Positions 5,259 through 12,177 of a stretch of 64,000 bases of DNA are shown piece by piece. Positions within the stretch are counted from its first letter, which is position 1; each line of letters starts with the position of its first letter. The notes under the pieces were generated by a model, which was not told the origin of the DNA, did not search any database, and saw only the letters and a list, made by a program, of their open reading frames with translations. Made by a program: the position numbers and the translations under genes. This stretch comes from an uncultured Gemmata sp. Its GTDB lineage: Bacteria > Planctomycetota > Planctomycetia > Gemmatales > Gemmataceae. The DNA lies in NCBI GenBank assembly GCA_937924775.1, contig CALDUT010000018.1:1-64000 (forward strand), read 5' to 3'.

Positions 5259-5305
5259 CGAATCCCAAACCGTGTTAGAATTTCGCACCACGATTGGGTT
5301 GCGGA

Positions 5306-5683
5306 ATGTTATTCGCACTCTTTTTTTTCCTTCTGGCCGGCCATGCTCTCATGGATTACTCGTTGCAAAACGATTCCATGGCGGTTTGTAAATGCCGGAA
5401 ATCGAAAGCCCCGCTGGCTATCAGTGTCCCGTGGTATTACTGGCTGACGGCTCATGCACTATTACATGGTGCAGCGGTGGGCTTCATCTTCCGGTGGATG
5501 GGCTTTGAGTGGCATATCGTGGTCCTGTTTGCGGCTGCAGAAACCGTCGTCCATTGGTTCGTCGATTTCGGGAAATGCGAAAATTGGTATTCTTTACTTG
5601 TCGATCAGGCGATTCACATTCTGTGTAAAATCGCTTGGTGGGCATTGGTCGCCACGGAAGTGGTCAAGCCCATCGGGGAATAG
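5306..5683 (+). CDS. DUF3307-like small membrane protein
   Basis: A 125-residue protein of several hydrophobic helices. Conserved polar residues sit inside them: GHALMDYSLQN near the N-terminus, AHALLHG in the middle, and HWFVDFGKCEN and DQAIHI near the end. This pattern (H-x3-D-x2-LQ, H-x3-H, D-x2-K, DQ-x2-H) resembles DUF3307 proteins, found in phages and bacteria with unknown function; the His/Asp pairs suggest metal binding within the membrane. The ATG at 5306 is preferred over an in-frame TTG at 5294. Repeat copy 1 lies directly upstream, so recent acquisition is possible. Confidence 0.6.
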   Translation: MLFALFFFLLAGHALMDYSLQNDSMAVCKCRKSKAPLAISVPWYYWLTAHALLHGAAVGFIFRWMGFEWHIVVLFAAAETVVHWFVDFGKCENWYSLLVDQAIHILCKIAWWALVATEVVKPIGE

Positions 5684-5718: not shown

Positions 5719-6927
5719 GTGAAACGCTACAGTTTGCCACGATCGGGTCGAACCCTCACCACGGTACTGCTGGTCTTGTTCGCCGCGGCCGTGGCGGGCG
5801 CAGCCGGCTATTGGCTGGGTCGGCAGACCGAAGCGGAAACGGCTCGGATGCCGGTGGCCGATCGCCCGTTCCTAACGAAGGACCGTATCACCGCGCTGGG
5901 GCGGATCCAACCAGAAGGTGGGGTGGTACCAGTGTATGGCCCCCCGGGCGATCGGCTGGCCCAACTCGAACCGCTGGCTCCCGGCCAGCTACTGAAAGTC
6001 GGTGACAAGATCGGCGAACTGGCCAGTCGCAAAGACCGCCTTCTGGAAGTTCAAGTCGCCGAGACGCAACTGAACGAAGCCCGCGCGGCCCGGGCCGCCG
6101 CTGAACGCGCTGGCCAGCAGAAGATTCGCGCCGCGGAGGCCGAACTCAACCAGGCCCGGGCCAACAAAGCCAGCGACCTCGCCGCGCTGGCGGCGAAGCT
6201 CGATTATCTCGAACTGCAAGTGAAAGCCGCGGCCAAACACGTCGATCGGCTCAAACAACTCAATTCCCGCCTGGCCAAAATCAACGAACGAGTGGCTCCT
6301 GAAGACCTGGAAAAAGCCGAATTGCTCTTGGCCCAGGCCGAGGCCGAGTGGGCTGCCACCAAGGCGCTGCGCACCAAAACCGAGACCACCTACGAAGAAT
6401 CAGAAACCGCAGCGCGAGCTAAACTCGATGCCGCGAAAGCCGAACTGGAAGAAGCTTTGGCCCGGGCACCGATTCAATCGTCCGAAGAGAAGCTCGCCTT
6501 AGCCCGCCAACTGGCCGAACGCACGATCATCACCGCCCCCATCAGCGGCACTGTACTGAAGGTGATCGGTCGCGAAGGCCAACCGACCGGGATTGAGCCG
6601 ATTTTGCACATGGCCGACTTGAGTCAGATGACCGTGGTCGCGGAGGTGTACGAAAGCGATGTGGCACAACTTTCGGCCTGGGCCAAAGCCGGGACGGTGA
6701 GGGTGGAAGCCACCAACCCGGCGCTGGCGAACCCCCTGCGGGGGACGGTTCGCGGCGAAGCGGCCATTGCCCGCATGATCGCCCGCAACCAGATCTTCGC
6801 TCTCGGACCGCGGGAAGATGCCGATCGCCGCGTGGTCGAGGTGATTGTTCACCTCGACGCTGCCAGTACCGCCTCGGCGGCCCGCTTCGTAGGCTTGCAA
6901 GTGACCGTCGCATTTGCTCCGCAGTAA
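5719..6927 (+). CDS. HlyD/DevB-type periplasmic adaptor of an ABC exporter
   Basis: 402 residues from a GTG start: one N-terminal membrane anchor (about 13-33), a lipoyl/barrel-sandwich half (about 55-115), a long Ala/Glu-rich coiled coil (about 115-270), the second lipoyl half (ITAPISGTVLKV) and a beta-barrel domain with VVAEVYESDVAQL. This is the usual membrane-fusion-protein plan, closest to DevB of the DevBCA exporters. It should bridge the inner-membrane pump to an outer-membrane channel. Two permeases and the ATPase follow directly, and a TolC-like lipoprotein gene converges on the operon. Cargo unknown; DevBCA relatives export glycolipids or peptides. Confidence 0.85.
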   Translation: MKRYSLPRSGRTLTTVLLVLFAAAVAGAAGYWLGRQTEAETARMPVADRPFLTKDRITALGRIQPEGGVVPVYGPPGDRLAQLEPLAPGQLLKVGDKIGELASRKDRLLEVQVAETQLNEARAARAAAERAGQQKIRAAEAELNQARANKASDLAALAAKLDYLELQVKAAAKHVDRLKQLNSRLAKINERVAPEDLEKAELLLAQAEAEWAATKALRTKTETTYEESETAARAKLDAAKAELEEALARAPIQSSEEKLALARQLAERTIITAPISGTVLKVIGREGQPTGIEPILHMADLSQMTVVAEVYESDVAQLSAWAKAGTVRVEATNPALANPLRGTVRGEAAIARMIARNQIFALGPREDADRRVVEVIVHLDAASTASAARFVGLQVTVAFAPQ

Positions 6928-6963: not shown

Positions 6964-8184
6964 ATGACGCCGTTGCAACTCGCGTGGGCCAATCTGATCC
7001 ACAAACGCACGCGGACCTTCATTGCCGCTGCTGGCGTGGCCTTTGCCGTCACACTTATCTTCATGGAATTGGGGCTTTTGGGCGGGGTGGGCCGGACCGC
7101 CACCATGCTCTTCGACAAATTGCAATTCGACTTACTCCTCACTTCGTCGGAATATCTCGACCTGAGCCGACCCGGGCAGGTCCCACGCTTGCGGCTGGCG
7201 CAGGCCCACATCGAGGGCGTGGAACGGGTGTTACCGCTATCGTTTGGGGCTGCTAACTGGCGCGCTCCGGCACGCCGATCGCTTCTGGGCCAGCCCATTC
7301 CCGCTGGTGAACAAATGAGTATCAACATCGTCGCAGCCCCGCCGGAACAACTCGAACGCATCTTCACCATCGGCCCCGGGGAAGTTTTTCCCACGCCGGA
7401 AGCGGCCCACGCAGCCGGACGCGAACTGACCCAGCGCGGTACCTTCCTGATGGATGAACGCTCCAAACCCGAGTTTGGTGATGTGGACTATCTCCAGAGG
7501 CTTCCGCCTGATGGCCGCGACGGCGACTTGATCCGTGTCAACGGTCGACGGGCCCGCATCGTGGGCCGCTTCGCCATCGGCACCGGCTTCAGTTGGAACG
7601 GACTGCTCCTGACCAGTGAAACCACCTACGAAGAGTTCACGTTTCAACCCTCCCGGGTGGTCACCTTCGGGCTGGTGACGCTCCAACCCGGTGCTGATCC
7701 TGTGGCCGTGCAACGCCGGCTGTATGACCTTCTGCCGCCTGATGTGCAAGTTTTCACCCGAGCGGAAATCAACCAGGCTGAACGCAACTACTGGCTGCGT
7801 CTCACCTCCGTGGGGCAGTTCCTGGTGGTGGCGGTGGTTCTGGCCGTCGTGGTCGGCATCATCTTCGTGTACCAGATGATGGCGGCCGACATTCGCAACA
7901 TGCTGCCAGAGTATGCCACCGTCAAAGCCTTGGGCTATCGGTCGTCGTATCTGACAGCGGTCGTGCTGTGGCAAGCGGTGTTGTTGGCGGGGTTTGGCTA
8001 TGTTCCAGGGTTTGTCGCGGCGCTGGGCTTCTACGCCATCGCCACACGCTATGGTGGGATCCCCACCGGCATGACGGCAGAAATCGCTCTGGGCGTACTG
8101 CTACTGACCGGTGGCATGTGCCTAGTGTCAGGTGTGTTGGCTCTGCGGAAGGTTCATACCGCCGATCCGGCTGATTTGTTTTAA
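6964..8184 (+). CDS. DevC-type ABC transporter permease 1
   Basis: 406 residues with the MacB/FtsX-like plan: one N-terminal transmembrane helix (about 17-38), a large periplasmic domain (about 45-275) and three C-terminal helices (about 280-305, 330-355, 370-395). It starts MTPLQLAWANLIHKRTRTF and ends with the typical RKVHTADPADLF. The cytoplasmic motif PEYATVKALGYRSSYL is the coupling region of DevC permeases. It lies 36 bases after the adaptor gene and 23 bases before a paralogous permease, suggesting a heterodimeric pore. Confidence 0.85.
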   Translation: MTPLQLAWANLIHKRTRTFIAAAGVAFAVTLIFMELGLLGGVGRTATMLFDKLQFDLLLTSSEYLDLSRPGQVPRLRLAQAHIEGVERVLPLSFGAANWRAPARRSLLGQPIPAGEQMSINIVAAPPEQLERIFTIGPGEVFPTPEAAHAAGRELTQRGTFLMDERSKPEFGDVDYLQRLPPDGRDGDLIRVNGRRARIVGRFAIGTGFSWNGLLLTSETTYEEFTFQPSRVVTFGLVTLQPGADPVAVQRRLYDLLPPDVQVFTRAEINQAERNYWLRLTSVGQFLVVAVVLAVVVGIIFVYQMMAADIRNMLPEYATVKALGYRSSYLTAVVLWQAVLLAGFGYVPGFVAALGFYAIATRYGGIPTGMTAEIALGVLLLTGGMCLVSGVLALRKVHTADPADLF

Positions 8185-8207: not shown

Positions 8208-9422
8208 ATGCGTCCAGCGCCGGTTCCGCTTGCGTGGTGCAACCTGACGCACGACAAAGTGCGTTTTGGTCTTTTTGCCGCCGGCATTGGCTTTGCCGTG
8301 GTGCTGATGGGCGTGCAATACGGCATCATGAACGCTATGCTCGATAGCAATACCGTGCTGATCGAGCGGCTCAAATGCGATCTGATTCTGGTGAACCCGA
8401 ACCGGGCTTCGTTGATTTTCCGCGACGCGGTGTCGTCACGCCGGGTGGAACAAGCCAAAGGTGTGGCCGGCGTGCGGCAGGTTCACCCGGTGTATTTGGA
8501 GTATCAAACCGCCGGGTTACGACACACAGCCGCCGATCCTGCCCAGCGCACGCACACCCGCCGCGTACGCGTCATCGGGGTTGACCCGGCTGCCGATTTG
8601 CTCGATTTGCCAGAAGTTTCGCCCGCGGATTGGCAGCGGCTGAATCTGCCCGGAACTGCGCTTTTTGATCGGCAAAGTCGGCCTCACCCGGATCAGAAGA
8701 ACTACCCCGGCCAATCGGTATTTGGGCCGCTCGAACCCGGAATCCGCACCGAACTGGCTGGGCGGGCCATAACACTCATCGCCGGCTTCGATATGGGCTT
8801 CGACTTCGGCACCGATGGCAGCCTGATCGTCAGCGATCGGACCTTCGCGGAGTGGGTGCGCGCTCCGCTATTTCCCGTCAACCCGCTGGCGGAAGCCGAC
8901 CTTGTCGCGATCCAGCTCGAAGCTGGGGCCAATGTGCGGGCTGTTCAAGAGTCGCTGCAAGCCCGGTTTCCCGAAGGGGATGTTCTGGTTCTGACACGGG
9001 CTGAGATGATCGCGCGCGAGAAGGCGTTTTGGTGGCAGAACACTCCCATTGGCTTTGCCTTCGGCGCGGGGGTACTGTTGGGCTTCATCGTCGGTATGGT
9101 GATCTGCTATCAGATTCTCGCCAGTGATGTGGCCGATCACCTGCCCCAATATGCCACGCTCAAAGCGATCGGCTACACCAATGGCTATCTGAGTTGGGTG
9201 GTACTGCAAGAAGCACTGATTCTGGCCAGCGCGGGCTTCGTGTTGGGAATGGTCGTCACGCTGGGAACGTATCGGTTGCTGACCGACCTGACCGGCCTGC
9301 CGATGCGGCTTACGCCAGAACGTGGTCTGCTGATCGGCGGACTGACGGTTCTGATGTGTGCGGCCTCTGGATGGCTGGCTGTTCGCAAAGTCAAGAAGGT
9401 GGACCCTGCCGATGTCTTCTAA
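8208..9422 (+). CDS. DevC-type ABC transporter permease 2
   Basis: 404 residues, same architecture as the preceding permease: N-terminal helix (about 20-42), periplasmic domain, three C-terminal helices, the coupling motif PQYATLKAIGYTNGYL and the terminal RKVKKVDPADVF. The two genes are tandem paralogues that have clearly diverged, so the transporter probably uses two different subunits. Its stop lies inside the ATPase gene (11-base overlap), which makes coupled translation likely. Confidence 0.85.
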   Translation: MRPAPVPLAWCNLTHDKVRFGLFAAGIGFAVVLMGVQYGIMNAMLDSNTVLIERLKCDLILVNPNRASLIFRDAVSSRRVEQAKGVAGVRQVHPVYLEYQTAGLRHTAADPAQRTHTRRVRVIGVDPAADLLDLPEVSPADWQRLNLPGTALFDRQSRPHPDQKNYPGQSVFGPLEPGIRTELAGRAITLIAGFDMGFDFGTDGSLIVSDRTFAEWVRAPLFPVNPLAEADLVAIQLEAGANVRAVQESLQARFPEGDVLVLTRAEMIAREKAFWWQNTPIGFAFGAGVLLGFIVGMVICYQILASDVADHLPQYATLKAIGYTNGYLSWVVLQEALILASAGFVLGMVVTLGTYRLLTDLTGLPMRLTPERGLLIGGLTVLMCAASGWLAVRKVKKVDPADVF

Positions 9423-10776
9423 GTTACCCCCTCCTGGCGAACCGGTATTGCGTGTGCGTGGAGTCAATCACTACTTCGGCACAGGGGAAACGCGCACCCA
9501 GGTACTATTCGATAACACACTCGAAGTCATGCCGGGTGAAATGGTCATCATGAGCGGGCCCAGTGGTTCTGGCAAAACCACCATTCTCACCCTTATCGGC
9601 GGCTTACGCACACTCCAGGAGGGGGAAATCGAAGTGTGGGACGCTGACCGCGGCGATTACCGGCGGCTGCGCGGCGTCGGTGAAGATGAACGCGTCAGCA
9701 TTCGCCGGCTCATCGGTTTCATCTTTCAGCGACACAATCTCTTCGATGCGCTCACCGCGTTACAAAACATCCGCATGGCGCAGCGGTTGAAGCCGCAGGC
9801 CACGCCTGATCCCGACGTCTGCGCCCGCGAAATGCTCACGTACCTGCTCATGGGCGAAACCGATCTCGACGGCCGCAAACAAAAATCGCGATTCGATTAC
9901 AAACCCGCGGCCCTCTCCGGGGGCCAACGGCAACGCGTGGCCATTGCCCGAGCCCTGGTGAACCGGCCCAAGCTCGTGTTGGCCGATGAACCTACCGCCG
10001 CCCTCGATGCCAATAGCGGCCTGGCCGTGGTTACGCTCTTGCAGGAGCTGGCCCGTGCCCGCCCGGAAGCGGAACTGCGCGAACGGGTCCGCACGGCGGT
10101 CCAAGCCGGTGAGAACGGCCGCCTCGCCGAGTGGCAAATCGCCCTCCTCAAAACCATCGCCAGCGAACACGGCACGACCAGCCTTATCGTCACTCATGAT
10201 GCCCGCATCATGAACCTCGCGGATCGGATCGTTCACATGGAACGCGGGCGGATCGAATCGAACGTGGTGGTCGCGGAGCGGTTGTTCGTGCGGGAAGGTT
10301 TGCGGCAAAGCCCGGCGTTCGCCGCGATTCTGCCCGAAGAGCAAGAAAAGCTCGCCGATTCCTTGCTGATTGGCGTTCATCCCAACGATCCCGTTCGCCC
10401 CGACCAGCTCGCCGCCCGGCCGGGTCGCTTGGAAGTGTACAAACCAGGCGAACGCATCATCCGCGAAGGCGATCCGGTGAACGACCACAGCAAGTTCTAC
10501 CTGATTCGCCGCGGTACTGTCGAAGTGTTGCGTGAAACCGGCACCGCCACGCAAAAACTCACGGAAATGGGGCCGGGCCGCTACTTTGGCGAAGTGGCCC
10601 TGCTCCTGAATCAACCGCGCAATGCCACCGTGCGTGCTCTCACGCCGGTAGAAGTTTACACCATCGACCGGGCCACCTTCGACCGCTACCGCTCGGTGAG
10701 CAAACCGTTCATTGATCGTGTGTTGCAGAACTTCCGCGTCTTTGAAACACCCAGAGCGGTGGAAGGCCAAGCCTAG
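9412..10776 (+). CDS. DevA-type ABC ATPase fused to a cyclic-nucleotide-binding domain
   Basis: 454 residues from the ATG at 9412. The N-terminal half is an ABC ATPase: Walker A GPSGSGKT (49-56), Q-loop Gln106, LSGGQ (169-173), Walker B LVLADEP (188-194) and H-loop His262. About 30 extra residues (roughly 218-246) sit between Walker B and the H-loop compared with ordinary DevA. After a linker (about 290-340), residues 342-430 form a CRP/PKA-type cNMP-binding domain with FGEVALL (392-398) and PRNATV (402-407). The Glu for ribose and Arg for phosphate are present, so nucleotide binding is plausible. The fusion suggests second-messenger gating of the exporter. An upstream in-frame start lies inside the permease gene and is less likely. 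Confidence 0.88.
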   Translation: MSSKLPPPGEPVLRVRGVNHYFGTGETRTQVLFDNTLEVMPGEMVIMSGPSGSGKTTILTLIGGLRTLQEGEIEVWDADRGDYRRLRGVGEDERVSIRRLIGFIFQRHNLFDALTALQNIRMAQRLKPQATPDPDVCAREMLTYLLMGETDLDGRKQKSRFDYKPAALSGGQRQRVAIARALVNRPKLVLADEPTAALDANSGLAVVTLLQELARARPEAELRERVRTAVQAGENGRLAEWQIALLKTIASEHGTTSLIVTHDARIMNLADRIVHMERGRIESNVVVAERLFVREGLRQSPAFAAILPEEQEKLADSLLIGVHPNDPVRPDQLAARPGRLEVYKPGERIIREGDPVNDHSKFYLIRRGTVEVLRETGTATQKLTEMGPGRYFGEVALLLNQPRNATVRALTPVEVYTIDRATFDRYRSVSKPFIDRVLQNFRVFETPRAVEGQA

Positions 10777-10944: not shown

Positions 10945-12177
10945 CTATTCCCGGATGAGCAGCCCCATGGCTTGCCGCAGCTTCACCTCGGTGGTGTGCC
11001 AGTCGATGACGGCGCTGAGCAATTCACCCTGGGCCTTGAGCCGATCAAGCCGAGCGGTGGTCAATTCCTCACTGACGTTGAGACCGGATTGCTGTCGAGC
11101 TTCGAGTTCCGCGATCCGTCGCTCGAGTTGCCGAACCTCCTCAGCACGGGCGGCGATGCTGGCCCGGTGGCCCCGCAGCAGCACCGCGGCGGCGCGAATC
11201 TCGGCTTCGGCTTGCCGTTCGCGAGCCGCCAACGCACTGCGCACACGGGCGTTGGCTTCCGCTTGCTGCCGCTGCGGTTCTTTCAGGAGGGGAGTGAAAA
11301 TCGGCGCCAGGAGTGCTGTTAACGGGTTATTCGATTTCGTGCTGGCCAGCAGCGGGCTGACGGTTTGCAACACGGCGTTGGTCAATTCGCCGGCGGTGCC
11401 ATCAGCGAGAATCCGCAACAGGTTCAGGTCAGGCCGGTAGTGCAGGCCGATGAGGATCGCCTGGTCGATGTCGATATCTTCGGGTTTCACACGCAGCGGA
11501 TCGCGCGGCCACAGTGGCAGGGGATCGTTGGCGAGCAGGCCGAGCCGGGCACGCAGACTGGCGTTGAGCGCGGCCATGGTGGCTTCCAATTGGGATTGTT
11601 GCGCGGCGAGATCCAGCAGGCGGCGCCGTAGACCGGGTATGTCGGCCCGATCTTTGAAGCCGGTGGCTTCAGCTTTCTCAGCGGCGGCCAGTTGGGTGCG
11701 GAGTTCGCGATCTGCGGCCTGCAGCTGGTCGAATTGACCTTCGGCGAGAAGCAGTTGGTAGAACTCAGTGAGAGCGTCGGCCGCGGCGCGATTGCGGAGT
11801 TCGTCGGCGGCATATCCGCGCACCAGCCGGCTGATTTCGGCTTGGCGGGCCGCGGTCTTCTGCCAATGCGGATGAAACGGTGGCGCGTTGTCGGAATGTT
11901 GATCGAGATCGTGGGCGAAGGGGGCGTGAAAGACCGCTAAGCGGCGGCACTCCGCTGCGGTGAGCTGGCGGTAATGTTCCGGCCGTTGGAGGGGCGAAAC
12001 GGATTCCGTGGGAAGAGCGGAAATATCGGGGTCCACCGGTGTGCGGCCCACGATCGGCAATTCCACCGGGGCCGGGCCCACGCGTACCGGAACATGGGCT
12101 GGTCCCCGGCAGCCGGCAAGAACAAGCGCTGCGACCATACTCACAGCGCCCCACGATTTCACAGCGCGTTCGTCCAC
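10945..12177 (-). CDS. TolC-like outer-membrane lipoprotein
   Basis: 410 residues from a GTG, with a lipoprotein signal peptide (SMVAALVLAGC, lipid Cys about residue 23). The mature protein is dominated by long Ala/Leu/Arg-rich helices (about 130-235 and 305-405), with two related helical halves such as RRRLLDLAAQQSQLEA and RRIAELEARQQSGL. This is the pattern of outer-membrane efflux proteins. It is shorter in the beta-strand regions than classical TolC. It converges on the DevBCCA operon and is the natural candidate for its outer channel, though not co-transcribed. The start is uncertain; later GTG and ATG codons at residues 6 and 14 would still keep the lipobox. Confidence 0.65.
   Translation of the reverse strand: MDERAVKSWGAVSMVAALVLAGCRGPAHVPVRVGPAPVELPIVGRTPVDPDISALPTESVSPLQRPEHYRQLTAAECRRLAVFHAPFAHDLDQHSDNAPPFHPHWQKTAARQAEISRLVRGYAADELRNRAAADALTEFYQLLLAEGQFDQLQAADRELRTQLAAAEKAEATGFKDRADIPGLRRRLLDLAAQQSQLEATMAALNASLRARLGLLANDPLPLWPRDPLRVKPEDIDIDQAILIGLHYRPDLNLLRILADGTAGELTNAVLQTVSPLLASTKSNNPLTALLAPIFTPLLKEPQRQQAEANARVRSALAARERQAEAEIRAAAVLLRGHRASIAARAEEVRQLERRIAELEARQQSGLNVSEELTTARLDRLKAQGELLSAVIDWHTTEVKLRQAMGLLIRE

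Follow-up and report, generated by a model that had tools for sequence, protein, structure and literature searches.

What does a cyclic-nucleotide-binding (CNB) domain do at the C-terminus of an exporter ATPase? The control of tripartite efflux and envelope exporters is commonly ascribed to transcription and to their substrates. The locus described here, however, encodes a DevA-family ATPase with a built-in CNB domain, raising the question of whether such a pump responds to a ligand inside the cell. The gene lies within what we refer to as the window, that is, the whole 64,000-nucleotide stretch of an uncultured Gemmata sp. contig that was analysed, from a genome of 4.79 Mb. Judging from sequence, the encoded pump is probably switched by an intracellular chemical signal.

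The DevA-CNB protein and its operon

The gene for the fusion, devA-CNB (9412..10776, + strand; ATG at 9412, stop codon TAG at 10774-10776), encodes a protein of 454 aa, comprising a DevA-family ATPase followed by the CNB domain. It shares an operon with three further plus-strand genes. The first, devB (5719..6927), has a GTG start and encodes a periplasmic adaptor (membrane fusion protein) that matches TIGR02971 (292.0 bits, cut-off 129) and HlyD_3; the protein has a membrane anchor at its N-terminus and a long coiled hairpin. Then follow genes for two FtsX/MacB-type permeases: devC1 (6964..8184), with FtsX and MacB_PCD matches and a TIGR01185 score of 223 bits, under the cut-off of 290.35, and devC2 (8208..9422), which at 291.1 bits barely exceeds the same cut-off and whose end overlaps the start of devA-CNB by 11 nt. 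Where a DevBCA system has one DevC species, this operon contains two divergent DevC genes: it is a DevBCA-like variant with two permeases in place of one. Downstream of devA-CNB and convergent with the operon lies a gene for a TolC-like outer-membrane lipoprotein of the OEP family (10945..12177, − strand; PF02321, 32.5 bits, cut-off 22), the probable exit channel of the DevBCA-type exporter. A small DUF3307 membrane protein is encoded immediately upstream of devB (5294-5683, + strand).

The original prediction had read a CNB module with FGE and PRNATV motifs on DevA, encoded in an operon with an adaptor and two permeases. Its coordinates proved exact, and the profile scores agree with it. A chance or mis-joined reading frame was ruled out, because the same fusion was found at full length in numerous independent assemblies, including 17 of the 19 genomes of the genus (the window genome among them) and many other genera.

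The ATPase domain (9445..10257, + strand; residues 12-282) matches TIGR02982 with 334.8 bits, above the curated cut-off of 295.8. Its motifs are intact—Walker A, Q-loop, LSGGQ, Walker B with the catalytic Glu193, and the H-loop with His262—and the columns of the ATP-hydrolysis motifs are invariant in an alignment of 44 homologues. The alignment also places an insertion of ~36 residues (10054..10164, + strand; residues ~215-251) between the D-loop helix and the H-loop strand. This insertion is restricted to the Gemmata-side lineage and evolves fastest within the ATPase domain (54-76% identity inside the genus). A linker (10270..10416, + strand; residues 287-335), helical in both structure models, connects the ATPase to the CNB domain. 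Pairwise comparisons revealed an identity of 0.82-0.98 and a low dN for this linker, a conservation exceeding that of the CNB domain itself. This would be expected if the linker coupled both domains, and we propose it as the coupling element.

An AlphaFold2 model of DevA-CNB, based on 44 natural homologues, had a mean pLDDT of 91.8 and a pTM of 0.86. The nearest folds to its ATPase half were MJ0796, LolD, MacB and YbbA (Z ~27). As the ATPase half alone was represented among the matches listed in the whole-protein fold search, the C-terminal part was modelled separately (pLDDT 89.3). The fold search with the CNB domain returned the CNB domains of PKA and PKG first, with many ligand-bound structures among them.

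At the sequence level, the CNB domain (10432..10686, + strand; residues 341-425) matches PF00027 with 75.6 bits (E 3e-21; cut-off 27.5), and its best matches are again PKA/PKG domains (E ~1e-23 to 1e-26). The predicted phosphate-binding cassette, FGEVALLLNQPRNATVRA (10585..10638, + strand; residues 392-409), carries FGE at residues 392-394 and PRNATV at residues 402-407. Across 65 CNB-bearing DevA proteins, F392, G393 and G368 are invariant; E394 and R403 are present in the window protein, with Glu or Asp at position 394 in 61 of the 65 and Arg403 in 60. Within the genus, pairwise dN/dS values of ~0.1-0.2 place the domain under purifying selection. These counts contradict the scenario, raised along with the original prediction, of a CNB domain degenerate in all homologues. 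From its sequence, the domain is complete, conserved and ligand-competent-looking.

Degeneration of the CNB domain is ruled out for the lineage overall and holds for the cassette exceptions, namely four paralogues of the family-level group f3 and the protein of genome G501. In the f3 paralogues (L214, L216, L217, L218), the cassette is without the Glu and the Arg, yet both the domain and a pair of permeases are kept. In genome G414, a normal DevA-CNB copy is encoded along with a degenerate one.

Distribution, ancestry and neighbours of the fusion

Within the class, 106 of 297 genomes contained a DevA match, and the lengths of the corresponding frames fell mostly into two sets, of ~230-290 aa and of at least 380 aa. 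Of 100 DevA loci sampled in planctomycetes, 64 had a CNB domain and 36 were plain. CNB-bearing DevA spans ten family-level planctomycete groups, one genome outside the class (G169) included. The search for the same fusion beside devBC genes in other planctomycetes, as proposed in the original prediction, did find it. Its premise that DevA normally ends after the ATPase domain is correct for cyanobacterial DevA but not for planctomycetes, in which the CNB domain is common. The DevA-CNB fusion is an old one and is found widely among planctomycetes.

Beyond planctomycetes, four DevA proteins exceeded the cut-off in 299 genomes of the Nitrobacter phylum, one of them being a CNB fusion. This locus (L225:4348-8762, − strand, in genome G760) encodes DevA-CNB, two DevC and one DevB; the genome was binned to that phylum, and transfer and a binning error would look alike here. 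The Pyrinomonadaceae phylum (297 genomes) yielded three DevA proteins over the cut-off, two of them fused to GAF and none to CNB. A plasmid search returned 98 matching records, 0 of which covered 80% of the query.

A tree was built from ATPase domains, using outgroup sequences from cyanobacteria and alphaproteobacteria; in it, the CNB-bearing proteins formed one side of a branch (support 98/94). A larger tree required two changes of the CNB label, one of which was due to G533, whose contig stops just past the ATPase domain. When G760 and the GAF fusions were added, one change was needed, and the support of that branch dropped to 43/87. A single fusion event is therefore the simplest reading. 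The three DevA proteins with a C-terminal GAF domain (L132:274-4200 in G285, L227:5825-7432 in G1130 and L228:5605-7170 in G955; the frames quoted exceed the genes proper) formed one branch (96/82) separate from the CNB branch, implying that the same position in DevA accepts sensors.

Inspecting the neighbourhoods revealed marked differences between CNB and plain loci. One DevC was encoded at 32 of the 36 plain loci and none was detected on the same strand at three; the sole plain locus with two was the truncated G533. Wherever a neighbouring permease was detected on an uncut contig, plain loci had one permease (all 32). CNB loci, in contrast, had two adjacent permeases in 44 of 64 cases. Among the other 20, nine genomes encode a DevC1-like permease elsewhere, two loci (L172, L174) have both permeases on the strand opposite to devA-CNB, and further loci are cut by contig ends. 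A second permease was not found for G169, and none was seen for G493 and G531 within the stretch read.

TetR neighbours were present at 28 of the 36 plain loci and at none of the 64 CNB loci, as if transcriptional control had been replaced by a built-in sensor. Single-permease DevBCA operons (for example L121:3265-4107 and L097:10262-11044) mostly adjoin a TetR regulator, an arrangement typical of drug-efflux control. P0005-type TolC-like genes were nearby at 17 of 64 CNB loci and at 0 of 36 plain ones, a comparison biased toward CNB-side matches because the P0005 model was trained on CNB-side sequences. Clustering of the neighbourhoods returned no cyclase or other gene common to the CNB loci beyond the exporter genes.

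Fisher tests gave p values of 4e-13 for the link to permeases and 2e-4 for that to the outer-membrane factor; these are invalid as independent tests, as they reflect about one branch. Since the permease, TetR and outer-membrane-factor associations trace to about one split, they describe one lineage and not repeated events. Three traits set the CNB lineage apart from plain DevBCA: two permease types, no TetR neighbour, and an outer-membrane factor gene nearby in 17 loci. It is possible, though we would put it at somewhat less than even, that these loci represent a widespread class of type VII (MacB/Lol-like) exporters of planctomycetes, and that a heteromeric duplicated permease and a cyclic-nucleotide sensor on the ATPase arose together in it, replacing TetR control. 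Such a class would perform cyclic-nucleotide-gated tripartite envelope export.

Candidate ligands and proposed gating of the exporter

We consider it fairly likely that the operon encodes a tripartite exporter of DevBCA type with two permeases, in which the ATPase has its own ligand sensor that gates export. Beyond a binding-competent domain, the steps of this mechanism are ones that we infer. Two DevA-CNB copies would serve the DevC1/DevC2 pair, as LolD2 serves LolC/LolE, while DevB and the TolC-like lipoprotein would carry the substrate outward. The ligand, a nucleotide of the cytoplasm and most probably a 3',5'-cyclic mononucleotide, would occupy the phosphate-binding cassette, and the C-terminal helix would close over it. 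The resulting movement may be transmitted via the linker (residues 287-335) to the ATPase domain, altering ATPase activity and hence export. With the sign guessed from PKA, Epac and CNB-gated channels, the empty CNB domain would restrain the ATPase and the ligand would free it. Counted against a sensor-gated exporter are the Arg-less f3 paralogues and G501, the HetC ligand not being cAMP, the cyclases of the window genome, and genomes G169, G493 and G531.

With respect to the source of a signal, class III cyclase domains were found in 20 of 20 genomes searched. In class III cyclases, a Lys and an Asp among the substrate residues mark adenylate cyclases. Four fusion-bearing genomes (G045, G066, G091 and G104) encode class III cyclases with both. 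The two class III cyclase-like proteins found in the window genome (L140:2370-4289 and L141:2193-4400, both − strand) have retained their metal Asp residues as well as the Asn/Arg pair, and the usual substrate Lys/Asp are absent. A source of cAMP in this genome is therefore uncertain, and cAMP is a plausible ligand for the fusion lineage as a whole and a candidate for this organism.

In total, three PF00027 proteins were found in the window genome. One frame (L142:2022-3188, − strand), located in a redox gene cluster, combines a hydrogenase maturation protease (HycI) with a cNMP-binding domain in which the binding Arg appears absent. A 917-aa iron-sulfur oxidoreductase-like protein (L143:2159-4912, − strand), adjoining an NADH-dehydrogenase-like gene, contains an embedded cNMP-binding-type sequence (PRTATV, YFGETALL).

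The CNB domain might sense a ligand of another kind, with gating unchanged: a cyclic dinucleotide, 2-oxoglutarate as sensed by NtcA or, following HetC, ppGpp or GTP. At the position after the binding Arg, PKA, CRP and PKG have Ala, Ser or Thr; residue 404 of the DevA-CNB proteins, which follows Arg403, is Asn in 49 of 65. Such a ligand would also fit the window genome, in which the substrate residues mark neither cyclase as a canonical adenylate cyclase, and the CNB domain of HetC from Nostoc, which in vitro bound ppGpp best, as well as GTP and GDP, but not cAMP (PMC10986499). Nevertheless, in its canonical Glu and Arg the cassette agrees with proteins that bind cAMP or cGMP, and adenylate-type class III cyclases occur in the four fusion-bearing genomes named above. 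Overall, we regard a different ligand as unlikely, albeit as an alternative to be taken seriously.

Alternatively, the domain could be a structural or assembly part, serving dimerisation or the docking of a partner, for which a ligand is not needed. KCNH channels contain CNB-fold domains without a ligand, and since the domain persists in four f3 paralogues and in the G501 protein although their binding Arg is gone, a ligand-free role would apply in part of the lineage. As a general explanation this is improbable, given that Arg and Glu/Asp are kept in >90% of homologues from ten families and that the domain is under purifying selection. Quite improbable, finally, is a Lol-like system that pulls lipoproteins or lipid out of the inner membrane under regulation by the CNB domain and is not a tripartite exporter: one ATPase with two unlike permeases is the LolCDE layout, and the ATPase fold is equally close to LolD and MacB, but Lol systems are without both DevB, here encoded in the operon, and the TolC-like lipoprotein found near 17 of 64 loci.

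If the exporter is indeed gated by its sensor, so that a soluble second messenger switches the ATPase, a MacB/Lol-type machine could be turned on or off within seconds, and the soluble ligand would provide an in-vitro handle for controlling a type VII transporter. To our knowledge, hardly any cyclic-nucleotide targets are known in planctomycetes; DevA-CNB is a concrete candidate receptor.

Comparison with known systems

The closest described relatives are the heterocyst glycolipid exporter DevBCA-HgdD and its cyanobacterial paralogues, which belong to the same DevA, DevB and DevC families (TIGR02982, TIGR02971 and TIGR01185). DevBCA-HgdD has in common with the window system the adaptor-permease-ATPase operon and, probably, a TolC-type exit channel (PMC8277102). 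However, cyanobacterial DevA stops after the ATPase domain and works with one DevC, whereas the window system has a fused CNB domain and two permeases. Review passages on DevBCA and MacB describe single-DevC systems and leave the CNB domain unmentioned (PMC8277102, PMC5985334). In the open-access papers searched, we found no account of a CNB fusion in a DevBCA or type VII system, in planctomycetes or in Gemmata. The suggestion that this mode of regulation had not been described accordingly stands for DevBCA within these papers, but a CNB-bearing ABC exporter has a precedent in HetC (PMC10986499).

HetC resembles DevA-CNB in having a CNB domain on an ABC exporter, and this domain is required in vivo (PMC10986499). 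It differs in belonging to another, peptidase-containing exporter class, in the N-terminal position of its CNB domain and in having no adaptor gene nearby. Ligand-binding domains on ATPase subunits that modulate transport are known from OpuA (CBS domains, c-di-AMP) and MetNI (C2 domain), and CNB fusions to MFS transporters are on record (PMC10710835). Unlike DevA-CNB, OpuA and MetNI are importers, and their sensor folds are unrelated. The DevA-GAF proteins likewise carry a C-terminal sensor domain on DevA, but have GAF in place of CNB, occupy a separate branch of the tree and were seen with one permease. Among type VII ABC transporters, LolCDE and MacAB resemble the window system in the fold of the ATPase (Z ~27 to LolD and MacB) and in a LolC/LolE-like permease pair, whereas LolD has no C-terminal sensor and LolCDE has no TolC or adaptor partner.
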